From: Candidatus Daviesbacteria bacterium
GTDB taxonomy: Bacteria; Patescibacteriota; Microgenomatia; Daviesbacterales; UBA10151
Length of the DNA stretch: 43,245 nucleotides
Direction: 5' to 3'
NCBI GenBank assembly: GCA_016195715.1
Contig: JACPZA010000002.1
Location: forward strand, 1-43,245
This document shows, piece after piece, positions 1 through 31,694 of the stretch (within the stretch, counting starts at the first letter, position 1; every line of letters starts with the position of its first letter). A program made the position numbers and the translations under genes. Below the pieces are notes generated by a model. That model saw only the letters and a program-made list of their open reading frames with translations. It ran no database searches and was not told where the DNA came from.

Positions 1-606
1 TTTGATTTTTCTGCATAACTCTATATCCTCATAATAAAGAAAATATCGTTCATCAAAACCTCCTACTTTTTCAAAAAAACTTTTTTCAAGAAGCATTGCA
101 GCACCATATGCACATTCTATTACCTGCGATTCATTGCCTGAAGGAATATATTCTTGGTAAGAATTTTTTTTGCCTAAAAAATATTCTTCAAAAACTCCCC
201 TTAAAGTAGGTAATTTTCTGATACTAGCTTGTACGTGACCATTAGTTAAAATTAGCTTGGGTGCAACTAAGGCAACTTTGAAGTTTTCTATTTTAGCCTC
301 AAGTAATTTTTTAATTCCATCATCAATTATTTGTATATCAGAATTTAGAAAAAGTAGGTACTTACCTTGCGCGTACTTAGCTCCTAGATTACAACCCTTA
401 GAAAAACCTAAATTTTTTGATTGTCCATAAAGTTTAATTCTTTTGTCATTAAAAGAATGAATAATTTCAACTGTTTTATCTGTTGAGGCGTTATCAATTA
501 AAATAACCTCTGATCTTTCTGGTAGATTTTTTGTTAAAGATTGAAGATATTTTTTAATAGAAGATTCATTATTAAAAATAACTGTAATTATTGATAAATT
601 AATCAT
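1..606 (-). CDS. GT2 family glycosyltransferase (rhamnosyltransferase-like), C-terminus truncated by window edge
   Basis: Hand translation of the minus strand from ATG at 606: MINLSIITVIFNNESSIKKYLQSL...VILIDNASTDKTVEII...NLGFSKGCNLGAKYAQGKYLLFLNSD...GAAMLLEKSFFEKVGGFDERYFLYYEDIELC. Typical GT2 fold motifs (NASTD, N-D, EDxELC). Not in the ORF track because it is open at the window edge. Confidence 0.9.
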   Translation of the reverse strand, partial: MINLSIITVIFNNESSIKKYLQSLTKNLPERSEVILIDNASTDKTVEIIHSFNDKRIKLYGQSKNLGFSKGCNLGAKYAQGKYLLFLNSDIQIIDDGIKKLLEAKIENFKVALVAPKLILTNGHVQASIRKLPTLRGVFEEYFLGKKNSYQEYIPSGNESQVIECAYGAAMLLEKSFFEKVGGFDERYFLYYEDIELCRKIK

Positions 607-1672
607 AAACAAGTTGCAATATTTTCTTATTAAATTCTTCTTTACTAAATTTTTTCGAATCGATGACGGCTTGTTTAGAAATCTTTTTTTGTAAGGATTC
701 ATCTTCTATCACTTTTAAAGTTAGCTCTTCTAGTTGTTTCGGTGTATCCCATAAAAATCCATTCACCTTATCTTTAATAATTTCAAGATGCCCCCCCTTA
801 TTTATTACAATTGGTATACAACCAGATGCCATAGACTCTACTGTTGTTATTCCAAAATGCTCAAATTTTTTTGGATCGCTTTCATCATACCCAGTAGCAT
901 GCCAATATATTAGCGATTCAGCATATAAATCTATCAATTCTTTTAATTTAATATTCGGGTAAAAAAATATTTTGTATCCTATCGCTTCTTTTCTTAATTG
1001 GGAAAGAAAATCTTCATTTCCATCCATAACTCCTCCAGCTAAATGTAAACTTAGTTCGTTGATTTTATTTCTATTAACTAAGCTCTTAAAAACTTTTATT
1101 AATAACTCCTGCTTCTTGGGTTTTGAAGTACTAAAAAACCCAACCGATAAAATTTTTCTTTTCTTTTTACCTACTCTAAATCCATTCAAACTAACCGGTG
1201 GATAAAGCGTGAAGCCCTTTATCGGAAATTTTTTTTGAATATATTCTCTAGTAAAATCAGAGTTAAAGATTGCTTGTTTCCAGCTACTTAATTTAAACCT
1301 CCCCCAAATTCCATTAACATTTAAATGCTCTAAAGGAAGTTGAAAGTGTAAAATATTTTTTTTAGCGGTAGATAAAAAGATGCTCCCATCACTGTTATAA
1401 AACAAACAATCATATTTTTTCAGAAAAAACAGCCTTGAAAAAAAAGAACTATTTTTCCCAAAAGGAGCCTTAATGAACTTTACTTTAGCTAAGTCTAGAT
1501 TATGCAGATCTAAGATTTTTTTTCTTAAGGTATTTTCACCTATTAAATCAAGATGATCATCTAATAAAAGATCCACTTCGTTTTTATTAGATAAGCATTC
1601 TGCAATTGTTAACATATATTTTTCCCCTCCTCCAGCCGTATCAAGGTAAGGACTATAAATTGCAATTTTCAT
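599..1672 (-). CDS. GT4 family glycosyltransferase
   Basis: N-term AIYSPYLDTAGGGEKYMLTIAE; C-term KKFEHFGITTVESMASGCIPIVINKGGHLEII (GT4 E-x7-E-type motif). Confidence 0.88.
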   Translation of the reverse strand: MKIAIYSPYLDTAGGGEKYMLTIAECLSNKNEVDLLLDDHLDLIGENTLRKKILDLHNLDLAKVKFIKAPFGKNSSFFSRLFFLKKYDCLFYNSDGSIFLSTAKKNILHFQLPLEHLNVNGIWGRFKLSSWKQAIFNSDFTREYIQKKFPIKGFTLYPPVSLNGFRVGKKKRKILSVGFFSTSKPKKQELLIKVFKSLVNRNKINELSLHLAGGVMDGNEDFLSQLRKEAIGYKIFFYPNIKLKELIDLYAESLIYWHATGYDESDPKKFEHFGITTVESMASGCIPIVINKGGHLEIIKDKVNGFLWDTPKQLEELTLKVIEDESLQKKISKQAVIDSKKFSKEEFNKKILQLVYD

Positions 1673-1686
1673 ATACTAATAATATC

Positions 1687-3180
1687 CTACTGTACAAAAC
1701 CAAGCAGTGAATCTGATAAATTTTCGTCCGGACCCATACATATTTTTTCTAAATCCTTCTTTGAAAAAAGTTTTTTTTGGGAAATTAAACCTATGTTGCC
1801 AAAACGGATATCAGACTCATTTGATAGACTATGCGGCAACACTAAATTATAAACGGGAATTTCATTGCTAGGTTTTTTAATTTTAATATTATTAAGATAA
1901 AAAAGATATCTAAAACCAACATTATCTCCCACCTTAGCGATATAACTTATCCCAATGCAAGGATAATTTTTTTTTAACGAATCCATTTTTATATACTCGA
2001 CAGCATATTTTCTTTCAAGATAACCTAAATGATTATATTCTCTTGAGGTAATTATATATAGACTATTTTGTAAAATTAAAAAGCTAAAAACTAGTAAACA
2101 AAAAATTTTAAGGATCTTTGAATATTTAAATATAATCGCTAAACCAACAATCATAATACTTAAAAAAACCATATCTAAATTTGAAAAATAATATTCGGAA
2201 ATAGCTTTTGTAGATAAGGAGAAAAAGCTTATCATCAAAAATATCCATGATAATAAAATTAGTAGATCCTTTTTTTGGAAAGCCTTTTTCCTAACTAAAA
2301 AAAGTGATAATAAAATTAGTAGAAGTACAACCAAAACATTATACGGAAAATTCCCTCGATAAGGATAAAATAATAAGCCTGTTATATTGTAGTTAACTTC
2401 AGATAAAACATGAATTAATTTTTCTATACCTTTTCCTCCGCCTTGATCTTGCAAAAAAGAATTAATAAAACTTTTTGATTGAATAAAATTATGTTTATAC
2501 TCAAAAAGCATGAGTGGAATTGAAGGTATAAGAAACCCAATTAAACCCAAAGCAAGCTCTTTAATCTTTGGGAGCTTTTTAGATAAAACTAAACTTAGGG
2601 GGATTAGAGCTAAAATAGGGGCTTCGGAAAAACTGATATGCCAAATCATTCCTACTAAAAAACCCACAAGTGGAAAATATATAAAGTTACCTCTGGCAAG
2701 CATTAAAATAGAATAAAAATACCAAATTTCCCACAAACTAGTAGTATTAGTTGGAACCACCCATCTATCATGCAAAACTCTCGTCAAAAAAATTGCTTGT
2801 ACTAAAGCAGCAATCAATCCAGTTGTTTTATCAAATAATTTTGCAAAAACAAAATAAAAGCTAAATATTGTGGCAACAGAAATTAGCGTAACAAGAATTA
2901 TTCCACCAGTTGGCTCCATATTTGTAATTAAAAAAAATGGAACCAAACTATAGTAAAAAAAAGGGCCAATAAATATCCCTTCAGTACTAGTTACTTGCCC
3001 AATAAGGCGTAAATGCTTATTTACTACAATGTCTTTTACTATCCAGGAGTATAAATCACCATCATGAGCAAAATCAAAACGCTCAATAGCTTGATAAGTT
3101 CTTAAAAAAATACCAATTAAAACAATTAAAGAAAGGATTAAAATTACCTTATGAGTCTTAAGAATATAATTTAAGTTCAT
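1687..3180 (-). CDS. Polytopic membrane glycosyltransferase (GT39/ArnT-like, GT-C fold)
   Basis: Multiple hydrophobic helices; acidic first-loop motif RFDFAHDGDLYSWIVKDIV. Confidence 0.7.
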   Translation of the reverse strand: MNLNYILKTHKVILILSLIVLIGIFLRTYQAIERFDFAHDGDLYSWIVKDIVVNKHLRLIGQVTSTEGIFIGPFFYYSLVPFFLITNMEPTGGIILVTLISVATIFSFYFVFAKLFDKTTGLIAALVQAIFLTRVLHDRWVVPTNTTSLWEIWYFYSILMLARGNFIYFPLVGFLVGMIWHISFSEAPILALIPLSLVLSKKLPKIKELALGLIGFLIPSIPLMLFEYKHNFIQSKSFINSFLQDQGGGKGIEKLIHVLSEVNYNITGLLFYPYRGNFPYNVLVVLLLILLSLFLVRKKAFQKKDLLILLSWIFLMISFFSLSTKAISEYYFSNLDMVFLSIMIVGLAIIFKYSKILKIFCLLVFSFLILQNSLYIITSREYNHLGYLERKYAVEYIKMDSLKKNYPCIGISYIAKVGDNVGFRYLFYLNNIKIKKPSNEIPVYNLVLPHSLSNESDIRFGNIGLISQKKLFSKKDLEKICMGPDENLSDSLLGFVQ

Positions 3181-3185
3181 GAGGG

Positions 3186-3989
3186 TTAAAGATGAAACTC
3201 ATTATCAATCAACCTTTGATCTATTTTTTTATATGTTTCAGTAAGTGGTTCTTTTTGTTGCAATTGCCACAATCTAATATAAGTTAAAACCATACTGAAA
3301 ATTTGCATTAAAGAATCCATAACTCCAATCGTTCCAGAGAAAAAACCTTTTCTCAAAAAACCTTGGTTAAAGGCTTCAGTTATAAAAATTCTTAGAAATC
3401 TCCAGCCAGACATGGTGGGGTGATTAGCTTTTAGTCTTAACTTGGCATCAATTTTTGACCACTCTAAACTTTTTAAAACAACTTGATCTACATCCCGATG
3501 TGTTAAATGAATAAAGGAGTTTTTTGTGTATCCTAACTTTCCCTCAAATCTAAGATATTCATGAACCTCTCCAAACCATTCTTTAAAATTTTCTTTTTTT
3601 ACTAATCTTATAACCCAATCCGGCCAAAAAGGACCATATTTTTGTATACTTCCAAAAACAATATTAATTCTTGAAATTGCATAAGTATTACCATTATCTT
3701 TTTCTATTAATTCCAGTATTTCCTTTTTTAAATCAGCTGAAACTCTTTCATCTGCATCTACATATAAAACCCAATCTCCCTTAGTTTCTTGAAAAGCATT
3801 ATTTCTAATCAAAGCAAAGTCAGAAACTTCAGTTCTAAAAACTTTTTTAGTGTACTGTTTGGCAATATCTAGAGTTTTATCGGTGGAACCATTGTCGAAA
3901 ACAATAATCTCATCTGCAAACGAGACAGATTCTAAACAAGCTTTGATTAACTCCTGTTCATTTTTGGTAATTATAACTACACTTAGCAT
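3186..3989 (-). CDS. GT2 family glycosyltransferase (WaaE/KdtX-like)
   Basis: LSVVIITKNEQELIKACLESVSFADEIIVFDNGSTDKT; WVLYVDADERVSADLKKEI; HEYLRFEGKLGYTKNSFIHLTHRDVDQ. Confidence 0.88.
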   Translation of the reverse strand: MLSVVIITKNEQELIKACLESVSFADEIIVFDNGSTDKTLDIAKQYTKKVFRTEVSDFALIRNNAFQETKGDWVLYVDADERVSADLKKEILELIEKDNGNTYAISRINIVFGSIQKYGPFWPDWVIRLVKKENFKEWFGEVHEYLRFEGKLGYTKNSFIHLTHRDVDQVVLKSLEWSKIDAKLRLKANHPTMSGWRFLRIFITEAFNQGFLRKGFFSGTIGVMDSLMQIFSMVLTYIRLWQLQQKEPLTETYKKIDQRLIDNEFHL

Positions 3990-3991
3990 AT

Positions 3992-4837
3992 CTAAATTGT
4001 ACCTTTCCCAAACTTAGAGAGCAAAAAATCTGTTAGGGCTTTACGCCTCACCCTATTTGAGCTATTTTTAAAAGCTTCTCTGACTAGTGCAAACTGAGTT
4101 CGTAAATTTAGGAACTTTGATGCAAAAAGCATTCTATTTCGGGTTATATAATAATCTTGGATTGGCGAACCTAAGCCAGTTGATTGAGCATTCAAATGAT
4201 AAACAACTCCGGAATAAACATACATTATTTTAAATCCAGCTTTTTTTGCCCTAAAACAAAAATCACTATCTTCATAATACATAAAGTATCTTTCATCAAA
4301 TAAACCAATACCATCAAACACATCTTTTTTTACCAACATAGCAGCTCCAGTTGCAAAATCTGTTTCACTATCTTGATCAAATTGACCAAAATCTTTTTGA
4401 TCAACTCCAATATGAGATCCTAGTACATTAGCTTTATCAAACTTCCCACCCGCATACCAAATAGTTCTAGAATCAGAAAAATATATTTTTGGACTAACTA
4501 TAGCTACATCATATTTTTCAGCTTTTTTAAACAATTCTTCAATTGTGTTTTTTTGAATTGTTGTATCTGGGTTTAATATAAAGATATAGTCAGAATTTAA
4601 GTCCAACGCTTTTTTAATCCCTAAGTTATATCCTCCCGTAAAACCTAAATTTGATCCAGATTGAATAAAAATTACATCATTGATTTTGCTGATTGCTACT
4701 TCAAGGTTATCTTCTGAATTATTATCAACAACTATGGTTTGTAAATTTTTGTAAGAAGATTTTAAAACTGAATTAATACAGTTTAAAGTTAAATCTTTTA
4801 ATTTATAATTTAAAATAACAATAGCAATTTTTTTCAC
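3992..4837 (-). CDS. GT2 family glycosyltransferase (rhamnosyltransferase-like); GTG start
   Basis: KKIAIVILNYKLKDLTLNCINSVLKSSYKNLQTIVVDNNSEDN; LNPDTTIQKNTIEELF; GAAMLVKKDVFDGIGLFDERYFMYYEDSDFCFRAKKAGF. Confidence 0.9.
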   Translation of the reverse strand: MKKIAIVILNYKLKDLTLNCINSVLKSSYKNLQTIVVDNNSEDNLEVAISKINDVIFIQSGSNLGFTGGYNLGIKKALDLNSDYIFILNPDTTIQKNTIEELFKKAEKYDVAIVSPKIYFSDSRTIWYAGGKFDKANVLGSHIGVDQKDFGQFDQDSETDFATGAAMLVKKDVFDGIGLFDERYFMYYEDSDFCFRAKKAGFKIMYVYSGVVYHLNAQSTGLGSPIQDYYITRNRMLFASKFLNLRTQFALVREAFKNSSNRVRRKALTDFLLSKFGKGTI

Positions 4838-4847
4838 TAATCAATTT

Positions 4848-5750
4848 TTAAGAAATTTTATTTTTGGCTCTTTGTAAAAATCTAGCTAAAGGATTTTTGG
4901 ATAAATTTCCGTATTTAAACCAATAATTTATCTCAATTTGAGCTTTTTTTGCTTCACTTCGTAACTCTTCTAAAGAAATCTTTTGTTCGTTAAACTTTTT
5001 ATCTTCCCAAAGTTTTAGATAAAGCACTAAAAAAGAAAAAGCTTGTAGTAGACTTAAAGCCAATCCATGTAAACCATCTTCAAAACCTCTATTGGCAAAA
5101 AAACGACTTAAGAATTCATTAAGTGGCTTGCTTATTAAATCTTGCCAAGAAAATTCATAACCCCTTTGTTTTAGCTCCTTGGCTTGAATATCAGTATATC
5201 TGTTCATTCGATTAACAAATTCAAATACTGATTGATAGTGATTGTGGACAATTGCCCATTTTTCATCTCCAGGAAGTTTTACCCCCTGACCAGCTGTTTT
5301 GGGTTTTTTGTGAATTTGATCTGACCACTCAACACTTCCTTTTTTAAAGAAACGGACATTATAATCTGGCCACCACATTGAAGCTTTCATCCATTTTCCA
5401 AAAATAATATTTTTTCTTGGAATCTCAATATACGTAGATACCACCTGCTTTTGAACTACCTCCTTCAAGTAATTTGCCAAGCTCCCTTGCACCTCCTCAT
5501 CAGCATCCACAACTAAAATCCATTCATGAGCAGCTTTTGAAATAGCAAAATTTCGGGCTGGTTCTACATATCCCTCATTTTTGTGCAGTATTATTTTAGC
5601 TCCTAGCTTTTTAGCAATCACTGCAGTATCGTCGTCTGAATACATATCACAAACAATAATCTCATCAACAAAATCAAGAGATTTAATGACTCTCTCGATA
5701 TTTTTTTCTTCGTTATAAGTATTTATAATGGCGGTAATTTTTCCAACCAT
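4848..5750 (-). CDS. GT2 family glycosyltransferase (WaaE/KdtX-like)
   Basis: KITAIINTYNEEKNIERVIKSLDFVDEIIVCDMYSDDDT; EWILVVDADEEVQGSLANYL; paralogous architecture to 3186..3989. Confidence 0.88.
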   Translation of the reverse strand: MVGKITAIINTYNEEKNIERVIKSLDFVDEIIVCDMYSDDDTAVIAKKLGAKIILHKNEGYVEPARNFAISKAAHEWILVVDADEEVQGSLANYLKEVVQKQVVSTYIEIPRKNIIFGKWMKASMWWPDYNVRFFKKGSVEWSDQIHKKPKTAGQGVKLPGDEKWAIVHNHYQSVFEFVNRMNRYTDIQAKELKQRGYEFSWQDLISKPLNEFLSRFFANRGFEDGLHGLALSLLQAFSFLVLYLKLWEDKKFNEQKISLEELRSEAKKAQIEINYWFKYGNLSKNPLARFLQRAKNKIS

Positions 5751-5757
5751 ACTTTAA

Positions 5758-7395
5758 TTATTCTTTTTTTTCACTAATAAATAAAGACCGTTTACCATCT
5801 AATCCATTCATATAACTAAAGTTAGGTAAAGTTTGTTGTTCATTCATACTGCCAATATATAAAACACTCCCTTTTAAAGACCTAATGAACTGCTCTGCTT
5901 GATTATCTGGGACATTTCCTATGAAGATATTATTTATTTGTTTGAATTTTAAATTATTTAAATAAGAAGCTTTTTGATTAGCGTATATTATTAATTTTGG
6001 ATCTACAATATCATAAACAGGATAGGCATACTCAATATTATCAATCCTATCTGAAACAATAATAAAGTCAAATTTAATTTTATTCTCAATAATTATACCA
6101 GAAGCTTGTTTTGCCGGATACGACCAAAATCTTGAATATAAGTTTGGAGCAAGGAAATAAAATTTATCAATGAAAAATCCAAATTGGACTAAAAATAATA
6201 AAAGCACCAACCCCAAAGAAAAATATTTCCATTTTTTTATATTTAATAGAGTTACTAAACCTAAGCTAGAAAATAAAATTAATGGGGGTAACATAAATGA
6301 ATTTCTTAGTGCATGTTGCTCTAAAATTAGTGCGGTAGGTAAAGGAACGATTAAAATCCAAAAAATTAAAAAAATAGTTTTTCTGCGATAGTTTGACCAT
6401 CCATAATATAAACCAGTAATAATAAGTATCGCCTCAGCAAAATATAATTCACCGAAGTTTGACATATTATGTCTGGGATTTTTATCTCCGTGAAAAAATA
6501 AAAAATCCCAAGATAAATTTTGAAAGTAACTTTGGAAAATTAATTTAAAATATTCAGTAGGTTTATTATGGAAAAAGTTAGACAAATTTGCTGGTAAAAG
6601 GTCGGTTGATCTTTCCGAATTTATTTTTTGAATGATCTGCTCTTTAACGTCTTTTAAATTAAACACATTTATATTAGAAAATCTATTTTCCGAACCAGCA
6701 AAGAGAGTTTGAGATGCTGAAAGAATTCCTAAAAAAGTTAAAATTAATAAAGATATAGCAGTTACAACTATCAATTTTTTTTCAAAATAAAGTTTAAAAT
6801 CACCTCTTAACCATAAAAGCAAGGGAATAATAAAAAGTAATGTTAATTTATAAGTAGGATAAGTATGGATAGTTAATCCAAGAAAAAATGCAGAAAGAAT
6901 ATAAAAAAAAGGTTTTTTTGTTGCATATATAAATAAAACTATCCCCAAAAGCGCCAAAAAAAGCGCAAAATGAGCTTCAAATCCCCCAATGCTTAAACTT
7001 AAATCCCAAATAGATACAGAATAAATGAAGGCTGCAATAAGTCCTGTACTCTTTGAAAAAAACTTTTTACCAAGAAAATAAATAAGGACAATATTCAAAA
7101 GCCCAGAGATTATTGACAAAGATCTGACACCTAAAGCAGATGGTCCAAATAAAGCAACAAATGGAATTGATGCATAAACATAGCCGCCAGGCCTGCCCGC
7201 TCCCATATTAAAAGTTAGTGGTAAAAATTGACCAGTTTGATCCATTCCAGTTTTAAGCAAAGAATAAGCATCAAACACTAAAGTAAGTTCATCGCCATAT
7301 AAGGAAATTTTATTAATAAGAAGTATTCTTAATATAAATCCTAAAACAATTATTAAAGTTAAAATTAAATATGTGGAATATATTCTTTTTACCAT
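5758..7395 (-). CDS. GT39/PMT-like polytopic membrane glycosyltransferase
   Basis: ISLYGDELTLVFDAYSLLKTGMDQTG (acidic GDE loop motif) and many TM helices. Confidence 0.75.
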   Translation of the reverse strand: MVKRIYSTYLILTLIIVLGFILRILLINKISLYGDELTLVFDAYSLLKTGMDQTGQFLPLTFNMGAGRPGGYVYASIPFVALFGPSALGVRSLSIISGLLNIVLIYFLGKKFFSKSTGLIAAFIYSVSIWDLSLSIGGFEAHFALFLALLGIVLFIYATKKPFFYILSAFFLGLTIHTYPTYKLTLLFIIPLLLWLRGDFKLYFEKKLIVVTAISLLILTFLGILSASQTLFAGSENRFSNINVFNLKDVKEQIIQKINSERSTDLLPANLSNFFHNKPTEYFKLIFQSYFQNLSWDFLFFHGDKNPRHNMSNFGELYFAEAILIITGLYYGWSNYRRKTIFLIFWILIVPLPTALILEQHALRNSFMLPPLILFSSLGLVTLLNIKKWKYFSLGLVLLLFLVQFGFFIDKFYFLAPNLYSRFWSYPAKQASGIIIENKIKFDFIIVSDRIDNIEYAYPVYDIVDPKLIIYANQKASYLNNLKFKQINNIFIGNVPDNQAEQFIRSLKGSVLYIGSMNEQQTLPNFSYMNGLDGKRSLFISEKKE

Positions 7396-9417
7396 CTAAA
7401 TTTTCTTTACCTTGTAAATTATTGACTCATTATTTTCAAAAATTTTTACTAAATGATTTTTTTCCAAATCAAGTTGATTTTTAATTTGTGGCTTTTCTAA
7501 ATAAATATAATCTATCTTTTCATCGGCCAAAAATTCCTCATTCCATTTAAAATCAACCTGACTAAAAAATTTATTCATTTTCTCCAATCTGTCATTTAAA
7601 GGATAACCGGTTATCAAAGCTTGTTCCTCAGCTGAAAGATAGGTTGATCTTAAACCAAAAGCTGAAATATAAGAGGTACTATACCAGGCATATATAGGTC
7701 TGGGCTGTTGTTGATATTTATCTTTTAGATATTTATCAAAGGGATAAGATAAAATAGTAGCATCCGAAGGAGTATTATTTTTTAAGTAATCTAAGGATTG
7801 AAGTTGGGCATTAGAAACTATTGCCAAAGCTGTAGTTCCAGGACCATAAAATTCAACTAAGTTTCCGATAACCGTAGGAACAGATAAAATAATAATCAAA
7901 ACTATTAAAAATATTTTTAATAGTGCATTTTTAATGTGAATCACTTTATAAAAAACTACTGCTGCATAAAAACCCATTATTAATAAATAATACTGCATGA
8001 ATTGAATGTTGTTATAAATTATTCCCTGCTGAACAAAGAAAATTGGAATTAAAAAAGCAACAAGCATTGTCGTAAGAAGCGATATTTCAAAAGGATCTTT
8101 AAGTAACAAAGATCCTTTCTTCCCAAAAATACGAATAAATTCATATAATGCAATTATTCTCATACCTGTATTTCCAATAAGAAAAATTAAAAAAGCCAGT
8201 GTCTCAAGTTGCAAAACCCTAAGGTACGAATGCCAAGTTCCAGCCGCCAGGTAAGTTTGTCTTCTTAATTCCAGATCGAGCCAGTCAAGTCTATTGCCTG
8301 CAACGACCATAGTCCTAATAAACCACCAGGGTAAAAATATTAAATGCCCCTCACCCGATTTCGTTAATAGCTTAAAAGTTATAAAATTTGTTATTGATAT
8401 TAAAATAGCAAAAAATAAAGTTGTAAGTTTTTTTGTATTTATTAAATCAAAAAGCCCCGCTGCTAATACTCCAAAAACTAAAACAATACCACCTGAGACT
8501 TTAAATCCAGTTAAAACCCCCCCCAGTAAAAAAGCTATTATTAACCAGAATTTATTTCTCTCCCTAAAATATTTTAAAAAGCTTAAAAAATATGCAGTGA
8601 TAAAGCTAAAAGCTATAGCATGAGGTGGATTACCTAATATTGTATTTGGTTGAGCTGCCCAAAAAACAGTTTCACCTCCAAAAATAATTCCATGTTTCAT
8701 ATATGTTACAACAAACCCAAAACTTCCAATAAAATAAGTAAAGGCGGTTGCAATTAGACCAATAAGTGCATTCTTTTTCCAAAGACTTACAAAAGAAAAT
8801 ACCGAAACCCCAATCATAAAAGATAAAACTACTGGAAAAAATCTAAAGTAAAGATCAAGCAGAGAGAATATAGGGAAAATCCGAGCAAATTCCCCCATAA
8901 ATATGTCCACTAAATAATGGTAGTTATAAAGCACTTCATGAGCATATATCGGATTTTTTGGGGGCATACTTTTAACAATTTCTTGCATTAGGGAAATATG
9001 CCATAACCCATCGTGGCCTTGAGAACTCCAAAAAAGTAACCCATCTCCGTAGTTAATCCCGCTAGGAAAATTAATGAAACCCTGAATTAATATTCCTACC
9101 AGAATTATTGAAAGCAATTTCCAATTATATAAAAAAACTTTCCAGGTTTTTAAAATCTCAAACTTATATCTAATGAATATATATATATTAAGGATAATTA
9201 ACATCGGTAAACTTAAAAACCTTAAGTTTAGCAGTCCAAATAAAATAGCTTCAAAAACAAATATTACACTTCCCAGCATTAAGGACAAAGCTATACATTC
9301 CTCAGCAACTAATTCTACTTTTCCCAACTTTAGAATTAAAAAGCCAGTCGTATAAATTACAAAAAATATTAGTATCAAAAAAATCGGAAGCAACGTAAAA
9401 CTATTAAGTAAAATCAT
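7396..9417 (-). CDS. Large polytopic membrane protein, probable GT-C-like glycosyltransferase; paralog of the C-terminal half of 9414..12854
   Basis: GHDGLWHISLMQEIVKSMPPKNPIYAHEVLYNYHYLVDIFMGE matches AHDGVWHIALVNQLEKNLPPLNPIYSGAVLKNYHYLYDLLISL of the neighbouring gene; multiple TM segments; soluble-looking C-terminus. Confidence 0.65.
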   Translation of the reverse strand: MILLNSFTLLPIFLILIFFVIYTTGFLILKLGKVELVAEECIALSLMLGSVIFVFEAILFGLLNLRFLSLPMLIILNIYIFIRYKFEILKTWKVFLYNWKLLSIILVGILIQGFINFPSGINYGDGLLFWSSQGHDGLWHISLMQEIVKSMPPKNPIYAHEVLYNYHYLVDIFMGEFARIFPIFSLLDLYFRFFPVVLSFMIGVSVFSFVSLWKKNALIGLIATAFTYFIGSFGFVVTYMKHGIIFGGETVFWAAQPNTILGNPPHAIAFSFITAYFLSFLKYFRERNKFWLIIAFLLGGVLTGFKVSGGIVLVFGVLAAGLFDLINTKKLTTLFFAILISITNFITFKLLTKSGEGHLIFLPWWFIRTMVVAGNRLDWLDLELRRQTYLAAGTWHSYLRVLQLETLAFLIFLIGNTGMRIIALYEFIRIFGKKGSLLLKDPFEISLLTTMLVAFLIPIFFVQQGIIYNNIQFMQYYLLIMGFYAAVVFYKVIHIKNALLKIFLIVLIIILSVPTVIGNLVEFYGPGTTALAIVSNAQLQSLDYLKNNTPSDATILSYPFDKYLKDKYQQQPRPIYAWYSTSYISAFGLRSTYLSAEEQALITGYPLNDRLEKMNKFFSQVDFKWNEEFLADEKIDYIYLEKPQIKNQLDLEKNHLVKIFENNESIIYKVKKI

Positions 9418-14316: not shown

Positions 14317-14352
14317 TTTAGCAGAATTAAACCAAGCGTAGATATCTTTTGC

Positions 14353-14358: not shown

Positions 14359-14366
14359 TTCTAATT

Positions 14367-14921
14367 ATGACTTATGCTTTAATTTATAAGCCCCAGATTG
14401 ATACTTCTTTAATTGATATGTTTCAACAGGAATACGATCCCTATTATCATTTAGCAGGTGCCCATTTTACCCTAATATTTCCTACTCCAGAAATGATTGG
14501 TGAAGATCAATTAATACAACACATAAAAAATACTTTAGATAGGTGGAAGCCCTTTAAAATTCATATACAAGGATTGGAAAAATCCTGGGATAACTGGCTT
14601 TATTTACTAGTACAAGAAGGCAACAGTGAGTTAACAAAATTGCATGATGAATTATATGCTGGAATTATGAGCCCCTTCTTAAGAAAAGATCTACCCTACA
14701 TTCCCCATATAGGACTAGGTCTATTCATTAAAAGAAAGAGGGATTATAAGGTAACTAATCCTAGGCGACTATCTTTTAATCAATCTGAGTTTGAGAGGGT
14801 ATACAAAAAAGCTAAATCTCTCAATCTTAACTATGAGACCATGGTAGAAAAATTAGAATTAGTTAAACTAGATAACGAATTAAAAAAGATTGTCTGGGTT
14901 AAAAAGTTCATACTAAAATAA
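14367..14921 (+). CDS. 2H phosphoesterase / 2'-5' RNA ligase-like protein
   Basis: Two H motifs, HFTLIFPTP and HIGLGLF, in a ~184-aa protein. Confidence 0.65.
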   Translation: MTYALIYKPQIDTSLIDMFQQEYDPYYHLAGAHFTLIFPTPEMIGEDQLIQHIKNTLDRWKPFKIHIQGLEKSWDNWLYLLVQEGNSELTKLHDELYAGIMSPFLRKDLPYIPHIGLGLFIKRKRDYKVTNPRRLSFNQSEFERVYKKAKSLNLNYETMVEKLELVKLDNELKKIVWVKKFILK

Positions 14922-14926
14922 TTCCC

Positions 14927-21275: not shown

Positions 21276-21282
21276 TAAAAAT

Positions 21283-22818
21283 TTATTTATGAATTTTTGG
21301 TGTAGGTGATGATTCAATAGTTGGTGAGACTTTAAAAAGCAGCATTGCATCCGGTGGAATACTATTTCCAACCGCCTTAGGAAACTCCATAATTTTAGTT
21401 AATCCTTCTTCGATTGATGGATATCTGGACTTATTTGCGACAAAAAATGTTGGATGAGAATTGGCGGCACTTCGCAGTTCAGCTGAAACTGTAGCTTTAC
21501 CCGGCACAATACTCACTTGTCTATTTTTATCTAAATAGATTTGCAAACCATCTGGAAGTGTACCAAAACTTCCTTCTGTCCCAACTACAATTGGAGATTT
21601 CTTAGATTCAAGATCAAGGAAGCTGGCAATTTGTTTTAAGCCATACCCTGCTGTCCAATCCTCTAAATAACCTCTCCTTTCTTCACGAGGAAGATTAGCT
21701 TGTGAAGGATCAATAAGCAAATAATAATCAAAAACGAGTGGTTGAATCATTAGAATAACAACTGCAGATAAGCTTAAAAACCACTTATTTCTAAAGCTTA
21801 ATAGCTCGGATAAAAACCAACCAGCTAAAATAAGTAATGGCGGAAATGAAAAAAGAATATATCGAGCAGTAAACGTTCTTAAAAGTGCCATTTGAATAAT
21901 TAATGGGATCAGAGACCAAAAAAGTATTACCAGTGCTAACCTATTTTTTTTATAAATTGACCAAAAAATTCCTCCTAAACTTAAAAATAAAATAGGTAAA
22001 GTGAGTATTTTTGGTAACCAATCTAGCAAGTCATGAAAGTGGGGTATGAAAGGATCAAGTGGTCGATAAAGTAAAATCGTTGGAGAAAAAACATAATCTT
22101 GATTTCTACTATTTAAATTACTAAACCCTGGCCCGAGTCTTAAAACATTATAAATCACCATGGTAATCACAAAAACAATTATCCACAAGCCCAAAATTTT
22201 AGCTAACCTTTTAGGGCGGTCTCTACTTGAAAAATCAAAGATAAGCAAGCTAGTAGGTAAATTTATCAGATTAAAAAATCCCGGAGGTTTTGTGAGCAAA
22301 CTCCCTCCCATTATGTAACCCAAAAACATAGCCAAATCAATTCTTTGATATTTAATTAATTCTAAACTTAAAATTAACGCCCACATAGAAAAGGCTGAAA
22401 GAAGTGAATCAACTAAGGCCATTCTGTCAAAAAAAACAATCATAGGTGCAATAACTAAAATAAATCCAACAAGTAAGGCTACTGAGCGATTAAAATGTCT
22501 CCAAGCTAAATAAACCCCCCCAAAAAAAGTTAGAAAGCCAGAAAAAACAGATAACATTCTTCCAGCTAAAAGTGGGTCAGAAAAAATCTTAAAAAGTGGA
22601 ATCATCACCCACATAAAAAGAGGAGTTTTTCCATCTGATAGAGGTAAAAATCGTAAAGTAGACTCAGCTCGCATAACCTGAGCCCATCTAATATAGATTG
22701 CCTCATCTGCAAAAATTGGTTGAAGAGTTAAATTTGGCAATCTTATTAGAAAATATAAAATTCCTAAACTTATTAATCCTAGTAGATAAAATTTGTTTTT
22801 AAGGATGAAATTCATCAT
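21283..22818 (-). CDS. GT39/ArnT-like polytopic membrane glycosyltransferase
   Basis: LQPIFADEAIYIRWAQVMRAESTLRFLPLSDGKTPLFMWVMIPLFKIF, ArnT/PMT-type first loop (ADE, K-x-PLF-W). Confidence 0.85.
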   Translation of the reverse strand: MMNFILKNKFYLLGLISLGILYFLIRLPNLTLQPIFADEAIYIRWAQVMRAESTLRFLPLSDGKTPLFMWVMIPLFKIFSDPLLAGRMLSVFSGFLTFFGGVYLAWRHFNRSVALLVGFILVIAPMIVFFDRMALVDSLLSAFSMWALILSLELIKYQRIDLAMFLGYIMGGSLLTKPPGFFNLINLPTSLLIFDFSSRDRPKRLAKILGLWIIVFVITMVIYNVLRLGPGFSNLNSRNQDYVFSPTILLYRPLDPFIPHFHDLLDWLPKILTLPILFLSLGGIFWSIYKKNRLALVILFWSLIPLIIQMALLRTFTARYILFSFPPLLILAGWFLSELLSFRNKWFLSLSAVVILMIQPLVFDYYLLIDPSQANLPREERRGYLEDWTAGYGLKQIASFLDLESKKSPIVVGTEGSFGTLPDGLQIYLDKNRQVSIVPGKATVSAELRSAANSHPTFFVANKSRYPSIEEGLTKIMEFPKAVGNSIPPDAMLLFKVSPTIESSPTPKIHK

Positions 22819-22845
22819 TTAAATATTATATCTTTTTATTGGTAT

Positions 22846-23943
22846 TTATTTATAAAGTTCAATTAGAATATCCCTAGAATCTGAATTATTATTTTGACTT
22901 ACTATATCAGGATAATTTTTTTGCAAGTTAAGTTGAACTTCTTTTTTAATATCATCTGAAACTTTGCCGGAAAAACTAATTAAAGAAGCTTGGTTTTGAA
23001 AGAGAGTATTTCCAGTTTCAATATTTTTATAACCTAAATTCTCTAATATTGTTTTAATTTGGGCAGCTTTGCCAGTGACTCCTGAACCGTTTAAAATTTT
23101 AATTGTTAGATCTTGTTTAGCAACTTCTAACTTTGGACTGGCTGATTGAGAGGCTTGAGGGATAGTCAAAGTTTGTTTATTCGAGTTTGATTTATTAGAT
23201 ATAAAATTACTCAACGAAAAATGCAATTTAATTAAAACGACTATTGTTATAGATGCGATCAATAAAACTAATATACTAATTAGAATTAAAGTAATTAAAC
23301 TACTTTTGGGATTATTTTTAAGATCTACTTCTTTATCTTCAAACCCAACATCAAATTCTTCAGCTTTTAAAAAGTCAACTAATTCTAGTGCTTTTTTAGA
23401 ATCTAATACTTGCACAATGTTTTCTTTGGTTAAAGATTCATTTTTAATATTGTCAAATATATTAATTGGTACTATGGCTTCAATATACCAATTAAAGTTC
23501 TCAAAAACTCTTTTGACACTTAAATAAAGAGTTTTATTACTGGCTAAAAAATGTATTTTCTGTTCTGATTTAATCTGCAAACAATCTAAGTCCTTAAGTT
23601 TAACAGGAAGATTTTTTAAAAAATTAATTTTCTCTTTATTGATATCTAACAAAGAATCCAAAATAAATTCTTTATGAAAAACTAAAGAATCTGATAAGGT
23701 TAAAATTGCATTTTGAGCTGGTAAATCTACTTTGGCTATAAAATTTGCAATTAATTCATCAAATAACTCTTTATTAATAATTTGCTTATTTGAAAAGATT
23801 TGATTTGAAAAGCTGACTCTTTCATCTCCTTCATAATCGATATGATAAAGAATTAATCCTTGTTCACTAAATAATAAAACTACCTTTGTTTGATTATTAA
23901 ACATCTTAAATTTAAGATAATTAGTATTTTTTTTGCCAATCAT
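22846..23943 (-). CDS. LytR C-terminal domain (LytR_C) membrane protein with N-terminal cytoplasmic domain of unknown (possibly degenerate actin-like/PilM-like) type
   Basis: Single strong TM (SLITLILISILVLLIASITIVVLIKL) then ...LTIKILNGSGVTGKAAQIKTILENLGYKNIETGNTLFQNQASLISFSGKVSDDIKKEVQ (LytR_C). Start could instead be internal ATG at 23904. Confidence 0.7.
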   Translation of the reverse strand: MIGKKNTNYLKFKMFNNQTKVVLLFSEQGLILYHIDYEGDERVSFSNQIFSNKQIINKELFDELIANFIAKVDLPAQNAILTLSDSLVFHKEFILDSLLDINKEKINFLKNLPVKLKDLDCLQIKSEQKIHFLASNKTLYLSVKRVFENFNWYIEAIVPINIFDNIKNESLTKENIVQVLDSKKALELVDFLKAEEFDVGFEDKEVDLKNNPKSSLITLILISILVLLIASITIVVLIKLHFSLSNFISNKSNSNKQTLTIPQASQSASPKLEVAKQDLTIKILNGSGVTGKAAQIKTILENLGYKNIETGNTLFQNQASLISFSGKVSDDIKKEVQLNLQKNYPDIVSQNNNSDSRDILIELYK

Positions 23944-24664
23944 TAAGTCTAATTCTTAAAATATCTTTTATCGCTTCTATAGAATCTTTAATTATTTGAA
24001 CTCTTTCAGTTCCAACATGATGCCAATCAACAACCACTTCAGCAATTTTTAAATTCTTTTTCTTAGCTAGAAATAACACCTCAACATCAAATCCAGCATT
24101 TACTGCTGCCCCAGATTCTTTAACTTTTTTCCAATGGATCGACAAAGTTGGAAAAATTTCTTGAATAGCTTGGTTTGTAAAAGCCTTAAATCCACACTGA
24201 GTATCAATATATGGTAAACCTAAAACAATATTACGAATACTGGCAAAGCAATAAGCTGCAATTTTCCGAACTAGAGGAGCACCTTTGCGTCCTTGTCTAG
24301 AACCAATTACAATATCAAATCCCTCAGCAAATTTTTCCCAAAATTTTTCCACTTCTTGTAAGGGGGTTGCTTGATCCATATCAGTAAACAAAACCACTTT
24401 ACCTTTTGCCATGAGTAATCCTGACATCACGGCGATAGCTTTACCACCATGAGAATTTTTGATTAATTTAAAGTCTTTTTTATTTTTAATTTTTCTGTCA
24501 ATCAGTGAAACTGTATCATCAGTTGAACCATCATCGACTATTAATACTTCGAAGTTATATTTTTGCTTTGTTAAGTAACCTTCTACTTCATCCAAACTAC
24601 CTCTCTGGATATTAACCGATTCATTATATGCAGGTATAACAACAGATAATTTTAAATTATTCAT
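23921..24664 (-). CDS. GT2 dolichyl/polyprenyl-phosphate glycosyltransferase-like (DPM1/DPG synthase type)
   Basis: LSVVIPAYNESVNIQRGSLDEVEGYLTKQKYNFEVLIVDDGSTDDTV; GKVVLFTDMDQATPLQEVEKF; IGSRQGRKGAPLVRKIAAYCF; DTQCGFKAFTNQA. Confidence 0.88.
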   Translation of the reverse strand: MNNLKLSVVIPAYNESVNIQRGSLDEVEGYLTKQKYNFEVLIVDDGSTDDTVSLIDRKIKNKKDFKLIKNSHGGKAIAVMSGLLMAKGKVVLFTDMDQATPLQEVEKFWEKFAEGFDIVIGSRQGRKGAPLVRKIAAYCFASIRNIVLGLPYIDTQCGFKAFTNQAIQEIFPTLSIHWKKVKESGAAVNAGFDVEVLFLAKKKNLKIAEVVVDWHHVGTERVQIIKDSIEAIKDILRIRLNDWQKKY

Positions 24665-24669
24665 AAAAT

Positions 24670-26190
24670 TTAGGGTTTACCTCCAGGATTAGCTACTAAT
24701 TTAAAAACTTTTACACCCAAAACTGAAGTCTCGTCTGCAATTTTAGCAAGTCCAAATCCAGCGATTTCATATTTTGGATTATTAATTGGTTTACAAACTG
24801 GATCTTCACAAACTACAAATAGCTGGTCAGTTATCTCAACTGGAACAACGGCAGGTTTGTGATTATATTGCTCAAAATAAAATTGATAAGCTGCATCATA
24901 ATTATGCCCAGAAATTAGAGCAAAGTTAAATGGTTTGTTTTGAGATTCAGAAATTACATATTTAGCAATTTCTTGAGTTCGCTGAAGCTGATTATTAGGT
25001 GGAGTAAATAAAGGATTTTTGGGGATATTTACTAGCATAAGTATTAATAAAATAATTATCATGGCGACAAATTGAAAACTTTTTTGAAAAAAATTAATCG
25101 ATGCTCCAAGCAATATAAAAGAGACTGGATTTAAAAATCCTAAGTAATGATCATAAATAGAATCTCTATAAAATGCTAAACCTAAAATTCCCAGTATTAA
25201 CCAAACAGCTATTGTAAGTATCGGCCAAGATATTGGTTGGTGATTAATTTTTCGCCGTAAAGCATGAATTAAAGGTAGGGCAATCAGAATTGAGAAAATC
25301 AAAGAAATTATTAAATTTTCGCCTGCTAAATATCTAGAAATTAAATTATATTGATAGATTGGAAAAACTCTTATTAAGGTTGCAAGGATATTAAATTGAA
25401 CCGGTGAGTTTTGTCCATGGATAATATTTAAAAATGCATGCAAGTTTAAAAAATTATATTTAAAATCAAAAATTAAAAGGGGTGACATTAAGAAAAAAAA
25501 TATTAAAATAGAAAAAATTAATCCTTTATATAAATTCTGATGTCTTTCTTTCTTGTTTTTTATTTTAATGGTATAGAAAAAAATAATTCCCAAAATTGGT
25601 ATGAGAAGTAAGGCTAAATAATGCATCTGAAGTGCAAAAGCTAAAGAAGCGCCAACTAATATGAGCCATAAAAAATTATTAGTTTGTTTTAAAAAATAAA
25701 GTCCTAATAAACAAAGTAAAGCAAAAAATGATTCAGGATTTGGGTTCCAAGATGATCTAGAATAAATTATAGTAACCGGAGAGATAGTATAGGCAACGGA
25801 TGCCACGACTGCAGCGTAAACTCCAAAAAATTTCCTAGTTAAAAAATAAATTAAAGCAATAGTTAAAACTCCAATCGTTGCTATCATTCCAGCAGCTGCC
25901 ACTGGATTTAACCAAAAAACAAGCATCGCCAAACTCATCATATAGTAATAAAGTGGTCCTAAATACATATTCCCAACTGAAGTTGGTGGACCAAGAAGGG
26001 GAAAATCATGTCTGACTAAAATTCGCTCAACCATTAAGGCATCTCGACCTTCATCGCCTAAAAAAGTCATGTATTGATCAAGTTTATAAAAGCGCAAAAA
26101 ACAAGCTAAAATTAAAATTAAAAAAATAAAAATTGATTCCTTGGGATGAGATTTAATCCAGTTTTTGAAATTGCTTAAAGAATTTTTCAT
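24670..26190 (-). CDS. GT39/PMT-like polytopic membrane glycosyltransferase
   Basis: MTFLGDEGRDALMVERILVRHDFPLLGPPTSVGNMYLGPLYYYMMSLAM, conserved first-loop GDEGRD motif; many TM helices. Confidence 0.82.
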   Translation of the reverse strand: MKNSLSNFKNWIKSHPKESIFIFLILILACFLRFYKLDQYMTFLGDEGRDALMVERILVRHDFPLLGPPTSVGNMYLGPLYYYMMSLAMLVFWLNPVAAAGMIATIGVLTIALIYFLTRKFFGVYAAVVASVAYTISPVTIIYSRSSWNPNPESFFALLCLLGLYFLKQTNNFLWLILVGASLAFALQMHYLALLLIPILGIIFFYTIKIKNKKERHQNLYKGLIFSILIFFFLMSPLLIFDFKYNFLNLHAFLNIIHGQNSPVQFNILATLIRVFPIYQYNLISRYLAGENLIISLIFSILIALPLIHALRRKINHQPISWPILTIAVWLILGILGLAFYRDSIYDHYLGFLNPVSFILLGASINFFQKSFQFVAMIIILLILMLVNIPKNPLFTPPNNQLQRTQEIAKYVISESQNKPFNFALISGHNYDAAYQFYFEQYNHKPAVVPVEITDQLFVVCEDPVCKPINNPKYEIAGFGLAKIADETSVLGVKVFKLVANPGGKP

Positions 26191-26885
26191 GTCAATTTAA
26201 GCCAAAGTTTAAAAAGGTCCAAAAAAGAATTAATAATAACTTTTAAACTTGAGCCAGTTGGGGTGCCGTATAATCTAGGATAGTGGTGAACACCAACTTG
26301 AACTATCTTAAAACCCATCTTTTGAGCATTTAAGGCGAGTTCTGGATTAATCATTGCCCCTCTTGAAGATTCTAATCTGGGAATGGTACTGAGAACTTTT
26401 TTGCTAACCATTTTAAATCCACAATCTACGTCTTGAAACCAGGTGGCAAAAAATAAAAAAATTAGAAATTTCCAGCCTTTAGCTAAAAGCAATCTAATCC
26501 GCGGATCATTTCTTTTAATTCTATATCCTAAAATTAAATCTGCCTCACTCGTTTTATCGATAAATTTATTCACTTCAGAAAAATCAAACTGACCATCTGA
26601 GTCAGTATAAACAATCCAGTCATATTTGCTTTGGTAAAAACCAGTTCTTAAAGCTGCTCCATATCCTCCATTCGGCTGATGGATGACTCTAATTTGAGGA
26701 TATTTTTTAGCCAGCTCGTCTGCTATTTTACCTGTACTGTCTTTGGACCCATCATCAATGATTAAAATTTCCCATTTTTTTAATCTTAAATTCTTAAGTA
26801 CTTTGATTGCTTTTTCCGTAGTCTGAGCAATATTTTCAGCTTCATTAAATGCGGGAAAAAATACCGAAAGATTTTGAACTAACAT
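26187..26885 (-). CDS. GT2 DPM1-like polyprenyl-phosphate sugar synthase
   Basis: LSVFFPAFNEAENIAQTTEKAIKVL...ILIIDDGSKDSTGKIADELAKKYPQIRVIHQPNGGYGAALRTGFYQSKYDWIVYTDSDGQFDFSEV; DVDCGFKMVSKKVL. Confidence 0.9.
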   Translation of the reverse strand: MLVQNLSVFFPAFNEAENIAQTTEKAIKVLKNLRLKKWEILIIDDGSKDSTGKIADELAKKYPQIRVIHQPNGGYGAALRTGFYQSKYDWIVYTDSDGQFDFSEVNKFIDKTSEADLILGYRIKRNDPRIRLLLAKGWKFLIFLFFATWFQDVDCGFKMVSKKVLSTIPRLESSRGAMINPELALNAQKMGFKIVQVGVHHYPRLYGTPTGSSLKVIINSFLDLFKLWLKLT

Positions 26886-26907
26886 TCTAATATGCTAACA
26901 TCAATTT

Positions 26908-28077
26908 GTGAGTAAAACAATTAAAGATATAGTACTTTTAAGCCTAATTACAACTATTATTACATTTTTAATTTGGCTACCTCATTTCTTGGCATTACCC
27001 AATTTTTATGGGTTAGATTTTAGCAGTGGGTTTAGTAATATTTATAAAAACTATGACGGATTGGAATATATAACAATTGCTAAATCCTTTTATAATCCGG
27101 ATTTAATTGCCAGCATCCCTCAAAGTTTATCAGCAAACTATTATGCCGCTCATTTTCCACTTTACTCCATTTTTATATTATTTTTTGGGCCGATCTTTGG
27201 AATGTTAAAATCTATGCTTTTTGTTTCTCTTATTTTTACAATTTTCTCAGCTATTGCCTTCTATTTTTTAGTCAGAGATTTTCAACTTTCAACAAAACCG
27301 CTTTGGCTTTCAATTATCTTTCTTCTGCTCCCTGCAAGGTGGATAATCGTACATTCAATTGGTTCATCTGAACCCACCTTTATATTTTTTGTTATAACAT
27401 CGATCTACTTTTTTATGAAATTTGAAAGTCAGAAGAAATCTAAATATATTTTATTGTCATCCATTTTTGGACTTTTTGCTCAATTAACAAGACCACCAGG
27501 AATTTTACTTTTTTTGAGTCTTTTGCTCTACATACACTGGAAATATTTTCTTCCGTTAAGTTTATCAAAATTCAAACAAAACTTTAAAGCGCATTTATCC
27601 TACTATCCACTTATTTTAATCCCTGTTGGGCTATTAGGAGTTTTTTATATATTCAATTTAAACTATAATGATTTTTGGGCTTATTTTCATAGCGGTGATA
27701 ATATTCACCTAACCTTCCCTCCTTTTCAGGTTTTTAACAAATCACAATATTGGGTAGGCGAAATTTGGTTAGAAGATATAATTTTTGTGTTTTTGTTGGG
27801 AATTTTAGGAGGACTTACATTAATTAAGCAAAAATTGTACCCCCTAGCATTTTTTGTATTAACATATCTGGTTGCAACAAGCTTAGTGACCCACAGAGAT
27901 GTCAGTAGATACGCTCTACCTATTTTTCCTTTTGTTTTAATAGCCTTTGAAAAAGTACTAACCACCAAAGAATTTAAAATAGTTTTAGCAGTGTTGCTTT
28001 TAGCTTTATATCTATACTCCCAAAATTTCCTTATTCATAATGTTGCTCCCATTGCCAACCTCAACCCTTATAATTGA
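26908..28077 (+). CDS. Polytopic GT-C-like mannosyltransferase (PIG-V-like); GTG start
   Basis: NYDGLEYITIAKSFYNPDL; NYYAAHFPLYSIFILFFGPIFG; ~10 TM helices; LTRPPGILLFLSL. Confidence 0.6.
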   Translation: MSKTIKDIVLLSLITTIITFLIWLPHFLALPNFYGLDFSSGFSNIYKNYDGLEYITIAKSFYNPDLIASIPQSLSANYYAAHFPLYSIFILFFGPIFGMLKSMLFVSLIFTIFSAIAFYFLVRDFQLSTKPLWLSIIFLLLPARWIIVHSIGSSEPTFIFFVITSIYFFMKFESQKKSKYILLSSIFGLFAQLTRPPGILLFLSLLLYIHWKYFLPLSLSKFKQNFKAHLSYYPLILIPVGLLGVFYIFNLNYNDFWAYFHSGDNIHLTFPPFQVFNKSQYWVGEIWLEDIIFVFLLGILGGLTLIKQKLYPLAFFVLTYLVATSLVTHRDVSRYALPIFPFVLIAFEKVLTTKEFKIVLAVLLLALYLYSQNFLIHNVAPIANLNPYN

Positions 28078-28109
28078 TTTACTTGCTTAAAAAGATTAGT
28101 ATTTTACAA

Positions 28110-28331
28110 ATGAAAGAATATGCACCGCAAAAAAGCGAACCTTTAAAAAGGGTAGTTAAAACATTAACTCACGGTTTATCCGAAAAAGTACATTCACTTC
28201 TTATTAAAATAAGTGATATTTTTATTAAAAATCCAAGACGCTTCAATATTCCACTTAGCTGTGATTTAGATGGGTTTATTCCACCTGGTGAAGTTATCAG
28301 GCAACGAATAATTCGTGCTATCAAGCAATAA
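28110..28331 (+). CDS. Small hypothetical protein (about 73 aa)
   Basis: ORF MKEYAPQKSEPLKRVVKTLTHGLSEKVHSLLIKISDIFIKNPRRFNIPLSCDLDGFIPPGEVIRQRIIRAIKQ; track start at 28074 is TTG, ATG at 28110 more plausible. No recognised family. Confidence 0.45.
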   Translation: MKEYAPQKSEPLKRVVKTLTHGLSEKVHSLLIKISDIFIKNPRRFNIPLSCDLDGFIPPGEVIRQRIIRAIKQ

Positions 28332-28334
28332 ACT

Positions 28335-29537
28335 CTAAATTATTCTAGTTTTTTCTACAGCAGCTTTGTGCCTAAAAGTAACGAAATGATTTATGGTAAA
28401 ATTCCATCCCATTACTGGCGGAATTGTAACTAAAAAGTAAATATTGTAATAAGCAATTTTTAAACCCAAAATACTAGCTACTCCATCACCAAAAAGTATA
28501 TGTAATATTTTAATAATAATTACAGCAATCCCTAATCCTCCTAAGCTTACTAAATTAAATATTCCGAATTTAGAAAAAATATTCCCTGAAGTTTTTCTAT
28601 GTCTAAAAGTCCAATAATTATTAAGTATAAAATTATTTACAATTGCAATCTCTGTTGAGATTGCTTTTGCAGTTGCTGGAGGAATTAATAATTTTGAAAT
28701 AAAAATATTATAGAAAAAAAAGTCAACTACTGTCCCGATCGTACCTACCACACCAAATTTAACCATAGTCTTAGCTCTTCTGGTTAACAAAAACAAAGGG
28801 ATATTAATCCCCATTTTATGTAACCTTATATCCAATGTATAACTAAAAATATCATAAACATAATTTACAATTTTATTTTTGGAATACCCCTCAGCCCTAT
28901 TTTTAAAAATTAAAGGCATCTCTTTATATTTAGCACCAGCCTCTATTGCTTCATGTAAAAATGCAGGCTGAATTATAAAAGTTTTTTCCCTCCAAGGGAG
29001 TTTTTCAAGATTAATTTTTTTAAAAAGTTCCGGAGTAAAAGCCCTAGCAGAATTGGTAAACTCTCTAATATTAAAAGGTCCCATTATTATTCTACAAACA
29101 AAAGATGCACCAGCACTAAAAAGTCTCCTTGATAATGAAAGCATATTTTTACCACCTTTAACAAATCTAGAACCAAGTATTAAGGTATAACCTTCTTCTA
29201 TGCCTTTAACCAATTTAGGTAAAATGACTGCATCAACTTGCCCATCAGCATCAAGTTGAGCAAGTACATCCGGATTTAAATATTTTATTGAATATTGGTG
29301 TCCTTTAATAATTGCAACCCCTAGACCTCTTTCAACACTCAAAAAATGAATTTTAGGATTTTTATCCGCCAATTTTTTAGCGATCTCTCCTGTCCCGTCT
29401 GGAGACTTACTATCAGCAATTAAAAGTTCAATTTTGTATCCTGGTAAATTTTTCTCTTGCTCAAGAACTTCTTTTGCGAACTTCTCAATAATATTTTTTT
29501 CATTATAGGTAGGTAGTAAAACAACTACTTTTTTCAT
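28335..29537 (-). CDS. Bifunctional-architecture protein: GT2 DPM1-like domain fused to GtrA-like membrane domain
   Basis: N-term VVVLLPTYNEKNIIEKFAKEVL...LLIADSKSPDGTGEIAKKLAD...QLDADGQVD; C-term MVKFGVVGTIGTVVDFFFYNIFIS...EIAIVNNFILNNYWTFRHRK...NFTINHFVTFRHK (GtrA). Confidence 0.9.
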   Translation of the reverse strand: MKKVVVLLPTYNEKNIIEKFAKEVLEQEKNLPGYKIELLIADSKSPDGTGEIAKKLADKNPKIHFLSVERGLGVAIIKGHQYSIKYLNPDVLAQLDADGQVDAVILPKLVKGIEEGYTLILGSRFVKGGKNMLSLSRRLFSAGASFVCRIIMGPFNIREFTNSARAFTPELFKKINLEKLPWREKTFIIQPAFLHEAIEAGAKYKEMPLIFKNRAEGYSKNKIVNYVYDIFSYTLDIRLHKMGINIPLFLLTRRAKTMVKFGVVGTIGTVVDFFFYNIFISKLLIPPATAKAISTEIAIVNNFILNNYWTFRHRKTSGNIFSKFGIFNLVSLGGLGIAVIIIKILHILFGDGVASILGLKIAYYNIYFLVTIPPVMGWNFTINHFVTFRHKAAVEKTRII

Positions 29538-31693: not shown

Positions 31694-31694
31694 T

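Follow-up and report, generated by a model that had tools for sequence, protein, structure and literature searches.

What does a bacterial locus make that encodes eleven polytopic GT-C-like proteins, three DPM1-type GT2 synthases and a Wzx-like flippase, with neither an initiating transferase nor a Wzy/WaaL ligase next to them? A first-pass annotation had read these genes as an outward-facing assembly line in which many GT-Cs decorate a product, different from a classical Wzx/Wzy system. The window, i.e., the whole stretch of DNA analysed (43,245 bases), is the start of a 116.9-kb contig (C12) belonging to a 1.149-Mb genome in 36 contigs; its left edge coincides with the contig edge, which interrupts a GT2 gene (1..702) of variable presence having homologues in several relatives. 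Genes are designated here by their first position and lie on the minus strand unless otherwise indicated. Protein 9414 has its named relatives almost exclusively among Candidatus Daviesbacteria or Patescibacteria, which makes the source a Microgenomates bacterium.

The eleven polytopic ORFs and the three GT2s are real in the sense that all are intact open frames where the first-pass annotation had placed them. Each of the polytopic proteins contains 8–13 hydrophobic segments and can be assigned to a GT-C family or fold, the Pfam evidence being weak for two of them (1687 and 26908). The curated PMT_2 cut-off of Pfam is passed by 5758 (5758..7395; 3.8e-9, D35-E36 invariant) and by two core genes, 21283 (21283..22818; 7e-9, D38-E39 invariant, present in 16/16 relatives) and 24670 (24670..26190; 3e-9, D46-E47 invariant). 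Sub-threshold matches were obtained with 1687 (1687..3180; PMT_2 1.7e-4), a variable gene with orthologues in 2/16 relatives, and with the divergently transcribed core gene 26908 (26908..28077, plus strand; PMT/PMT_2), whose product is 58–69% identical to its orthologues. PTPS_related (PF10131) matches 17876 (17876..19573; 8.1e-16, D35-D36 and D61 invariant) and, just above the cut-off, 19554 (19554..21371; 2.2e-6, D68-D69 and D94 invariant), whose translation likely starts from an ATG near 21275; 16189 (16189..17904; D40-D41 and D66 invariant) is a paralogue of these proteins, 31% identical to 17876 over 536 columns (E 7e-69). Protein 14927 (14927..16189; H25, D27 and D48 invariant) is of the GT87 type, the PF09594 cut-off being passed by an orthologue. 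The PMT_2, PTPS_related and GT87 types account for nine of the eleven polytopic proteins, and the remaining two, 7396 (7396..9417; 13 hydrophobic segments) and 9414, are paralogues, the former being 36% identical to the C-terminal half of the latter (E 2e-89). A comparison of the Pfam-negative GT-Cs with NCBIfam gave nothing useful.

The usual catalytic position of GT-C enzymes consists of acidic residues in the first outer loop. Alignments with orthologues reveal invariant acidic residues of the DE, DD or D.D type in or near this loop in ten families (1687, 5758, 7396, 14927, 16189, 17876, 19554, 21283, 24670 and 26908), the invariance of D40/D42 in 1687 being that of three sequences only. 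Most of the polytopic proteins therefore look enzymatic. The possibility that many of them are transporters or scaffolds devoid of catalysis, which the first-pass annotation had kept in mind and which the weak or missing Pfam matches of several proteins might suggest, is made extremely improbable by these residues, by the paralogy to recognised GT-Cs and by the GT2::GT-C fusion described below. The idea that such a density of GT-Cs is unusual for this organism was rejected: PMT_2 matches number 18 in this genome as compared to 15 to at least 28 in eight further members of the class, so that GT-C richness is normal for the class, while elsewhere in the phylum (other Patescibacteria) mostly 0–9 are found. 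More polytopic GT-C-like genes are found on C12 downstream of the window (47809-57203).

The donors of GT-C enzymes are expected from the three GT2s, all of which resemble solved polyprenyl-phosphate-sugar synthases, as their DPM1-type assignment had implied. The core genes 23921 (23921..24664) and 26187 (26187..26885), both present in 16/16 relatives, encode a GtrB-like (GtrB sll0501, 5.2e-17) and an ArnC/DPM1-like enzyme (ArnC, 1.8e-14; DPMS, 1.7e-10), respectively. The third core gene, 28335 (28335..29537), encodes a DPM1-type synthase fused to a GtrA flippase domain (GtrA_DPMS_TM, 9.3e-20) and matches the Pyrococcus furiosus DPMS (5mlz, 3.1e-31) over nearly its full length, GtrA-like membrane part included; its C-terminus is the sole GtrA domain found in the genome. 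In 10/16 relatives 26187 and 24670 constitute a single ORF of 714–739 amino acids, with the GT2 occupying approximately residues 1–234 and the GT-C beginning at ~218–255. The fusion thus links a donor synthase to a transferase and provides the best sequence-based argument for the supply of a particular GT-C by a synthase; it also reinforces the reading of the locus as an outward-facing GT-C assembly line supplied by DPM1-type enzymes.

Synthase, flippase and transferase are the elements of multi-component transmembrane glycosylation, known from GtrA/GtrB/Gtr, from CsdAB/CD/EF with CflA in L. lactis and from GtlA/GtcA/GtlB in L. monocytogenes (PMC8035078, PMC11127046). All three were found here: GT-A type synthases (23921, 26187 and 28335), flippases of the GtrA (28335) and Wzx (12847) types, and a GT-C genetically linked to a synthase (26187::24670, in 10/16 relatives). 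As with the lactococcal CflA, a single GtrA may serve several synthase/GT-C pairs. On the other hand, the known three-component systems are small pairs or triples that decorate a polymer, whereas here ten or eleven GT-Cs, three synthases and a Wzx occur in a largely fixed block, and synthase::GtrA and synthase::GT-C fusions are present.

Other genes of the window would provide the cytoplasmic side of the pathway. Three core genes encode a GT4-type glycosyltransferase (599..1672; PF00534, 3.2e-25; orthologues in 14/16 relatives) and two cytoplasmic GT2s (3186..3989, 15/16, 53–65% identity; 4848..5750, 16/16, 55–64% identity), while a further cytoplasmic GT2 (3992..4837) was recognised by a profile match and by comparison with relatives. 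The Wzx-type flippase, also a collinear core gene (12847..14316; PF13440, 2.3e-53), is the only one in the window, as the first-pass annotation had stated. Sugar-nucleotide synthesis is represented by a GDP-mannose 4,6-dehydratase (29653..30672; PF16363, 5.9e-102), an RmlD-like dTDP-rhamnose synthase (30722..31747; PF04321, 8.7e-37), an RmlB-RmlC fusion (31695..33080; dehydratase plus PF00908) and an RmlA-like nucleotidyltransferase (33077..33817), the latter identified by eye and having homologues in relatives. RmlB and RmlC, fused here, are separate genes in most relatives. A membrane-anchored protein with one transmembrane segment and a C-terminal LytR_C domain (22846..23943; PF13399, 1.2e-6) was considered as a core member and rejected, orthologues being found in 0/16 relatives.

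How constant is this arrangement? Few regions of bacterial genomes usually vary as much as surface-glycan loci. The synteny comparison recommended at the outset identified a core of 11 genes (28335, 26908, 26187, 24670, 23921, 21283, 12847, 9414, 4848, 3186 and 599) that are collinear in 22/22 genomes examined, a figure that expresses conservation given presence, these genomes having been picked for a homologue of 9414 or 26908. All core genes lie on a single strand except 26908, which is always divergent. Sixteen of these genomes belong to the family of the source (Ca. Daviesbacteria and close relatives), the other six to five different families of the class; where a core gene is missing, in a few genomes, its place is at or past the edge of the stretch read. 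Homologues of 26908 were found in 43/91 and of 21283 in 72/85 genomes of the class. The three PTPS_related genes, 14927, 7396, 5758, 3992 and 1687 are instead variably present among the relatives. What is new here is the conservation of the core order across families of the class; the recurrence of an unchanged order in five additional families of this uncultivated class points to an essential or defining envelope polymer as the product. Within the core block, a 2'-5' RNA ligase-like (2H phosphoesterase) gene (14367-14921, plus strand) has an orthologue in the same region of 0/16 relatives.

The most peculiar member of the core is protein 9414 (9414..12854; 1146 amino acids), which consists of a signal sequence, an extracytoplasmic deacetylase/glycosidase fold (residues 29–461) and a GT-C domain (492–1146). 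Its sequence has no significant match among PDB chains and only the fold comparison gave one: with an AlphaFold model of pLDDT 84.6, the best Foldseek matches of the N-terminal fold were a putative glycoside hydrolase/deacetylase of solved structure (3lm3, E 1.3e-10) and peptidoglycan deacetylases, and those of the GT-C half were the oligosaccharyltransferases AglB (3waj, 1.8e-7), STT3 and PglB, together with AftD. The latter resemblance, along with a sub-threshold STT3 match in 17876, could indicate a locus for protein glycosylation, in which a lipid-linked oligosaccharide built by the GT-Cs would be moved to S-layer or pilin proteins by 9414 or 7396 acting like PglB/AglB. This appears quite unlikely: the TM-scores to oligosaccharyltransferase folds are low (0.38–0.49 depending on the target, rmsd 12–17) and oligosaccharyltransferases are well represented among solved GT-Cs, a scan of five sequences of the 9414 family revealed no WWD motif in the GT-C half, and the WbaP, Wzy_C and LCP proteins discussed below point to a polymer.

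A match to 9414 occurs in 31/45 genomes of the family, and its identity to 22 nearly full-length homologues encoded in other genomes is 38–52%. The syntenic counterpart in three other families is a GT-C of ~565 amino acids that lacks the N-terminal domain (two cases) or a protein of ~1,020 amino acids (one case), and the N-terminal region by itself matches loci in Woesebacteria and Gottesmanbacteria, so that the fusion of the hydrolase-like domain to a GT-C seems to be confined to the Daviesbacteria group. Separate proteins of 600–690 amino acids carrying this N-terminal domain occur in other glycan loci (G041:C3:343404 and similar).

If the window holds neither an initiating transferase nor a Wzy/WaaL ligase, where does the glycan begin and how does it leave the membrane lipid? 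The absence holds for the window but fails for the genome: its one WbaP/PglC initiating transferase (PF02397, 1.1e-59) is encoded on contig C13, with DUF4012, GT4s, a PMT_2 protein, a Wzy_C protein, a second Wzx and the dcw/mur cluster as neighbours. The Wzy_C protein scores near or below the cut-off and belongs to a family that cannot separate polymerase from ligase. An LCP-domain protein related to TagV/TagT/Cps2A (1.5e-28) lies outside the island, on C16, and is present in 16/16 relatives. The adjacency of C12 and C13 is taken from the relatives, both contig ends being cut within genes and without a physical link in this assembly. Nine relatives have WbaP and the 9414 homologue on one contig and in the same orientation, with WbaP 75–144 kb downstream (a search for WbaP in G005, G040 and G019 gave no match), and in the four spans read (G008, G029, G041 and G011) the far end is syntenic gene by gene with C13, the interval between the arms being filled mostly with glycosyltransferases, GT-C-like proteins, methyltransferases and sugar-nucleotide enzymes. 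In these four genomes there is one continuous glycan island of which the window is one arm. Since WbaP/PglC, Wzy_C and a second Wzx occur together on C13, the inferences that an initiator and a polymerase or ligase are absent and that the system is not of the Wzx/Wzy kind find no support; the island offers candidates for an initiator and a polymerase, WbaP being encoded tens of kilobases away and on another contig, and not just outside the window.

In the closed relative G008 the island measures ~120 kb and takes up ~15% of the genome (0.82 Mb), which is remarkably much where the genome is so reduced. It contains 96 ORFs of at least 100 amino acids, 36 of which encode long polytopic proteins, and a Pfam census of 89 island proteins returned 19 GT2, 14 PMT_2, 9 GT4 and 12 methyltransferases. 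A DUF4012 protein is encoded directly after WbaP on C13 (L008:12151-14076) and beside WbaP in 13/13 further genomes examined, 12 full-length copies being 52–67% identical. The idea, suggested by eye, that it might be a hidden LCP ligase is disfavoured by an hhalign probability of 4% and no LCP fold match; as only 13 related sequences and a model of middling quality entered the comparison, this makes the idea less likely without eliminating it.

From the observed protein families, gene order and fusions and from the WbaP, Wzy_C, Wzx and LCP proteins of the genome, we infer a flow of intermediates, sugars, acceptor and mode of attachment, according to which the window is probably one arm, upstream and conserved, of a single very large surface-glycan locus in a Ca. 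Daviesbacteria-like bacterium. WbaP would place the first sugar-phosphate onto undecaprenyl phosphate, and the cytoplasmic enzymes 599, 3186, 3992 and 4848 would extend the chain with donors including dTDP-rhamnose and a GDP-deoxyhexose, whereupon the Wzx 12847 would flip it. In parallel, 23921, 26187 and 28335 would load polyprenyl phosphate with single sugars, to be flipped at least in part by the GtrA domain of 28335 and added outside to the flipped chain by the ten or eleven GT-Cs. The N-terminal domain of 9414 would probably trim or deacetylate the chain, the Wzy of the downstream arm may polymerise the repeats, and the product would be attached to peptidoglycan, probably by the LCP protein.

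The two arms, A (the window) and B (WbaP-Wzy), could also make two different glycans. In one form of this alternative the window would encode a self-contained lipoglycan or glycolipid pathway (LM/LTA-like), with GT-Cs building on a membrane lipid, and the WbaP-Wzy arm a separate capsule. Arm A is indeed equipped with a flippase and three synthases of its own and keeps its collinearity beyond the family, and GT-C-rich lipoglycan synthesis is known in Corynebacteriales (MptB, PMC2440535; PimE, PMC12041525). However, the relative order and orientation of the arms are the same in nine relatives and a dedicated lipid-anchor glycosyltransferase was not identified, so that we regard this form as unlikely.

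The best reading thus remains a fixed, class-wide multi-component transmembrane glycosylation core inside a giant Wzx/Wzy-type locus. As in Gram-positive capsule-type Wzx/Wzy loci, the genome has WbaP, Wzy_C, Wzx and LCP proteins, and conserved flanks enclose a variable middle; unlike them, the locus reaches ~120 kb in G008, has two flippases and many GT-Cs, and its arms are unusually constant. In the assembly of mycobacterial and corynebacterial arabinogalactan and lipomannan, GT-Cs extend the chain and Lcp1 ligates it (PMC4981717). The likeness (GT-C extension outside the membrane with lipid-P-sugars, an LCP protein being available) is one of working, without membership, since here the initiator is of the WbaP type, the GT-C families are others and arabinosyltransferases were not identified. 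What sets the locus apart is how many GT-Cs it has in a single block, the occurrence of two types of synthase fusion and a gene order that is conserved across families. The papers searched had nothing on this locus, and its first-pass description as an under-described system seems fair. More tentatively, the core might specify an undescribed, lineage-defining envelope glycan of Microgenomates, built mostly outside by a fixed relay of GT-Cs, each with a dedicated or fused synthase, with one GT-C bearing its own extracytoplasmic deacetylase/hydrolase domain in Daviesbacteria. The core narrows the candidates for biochemistry to a few genes and fusion proteins, in a lineage with a scarcely explored surface chemistry.

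Two small genes follow the sugar-nucleotide genes in the window: one encoding a three-TM protein (33831-34106), with counterparts at the same position in several relatives, and, next to the glycan locus, a TsaB-like short ORF of ~100 amino acids (35016-35321), similar in length in relatives.
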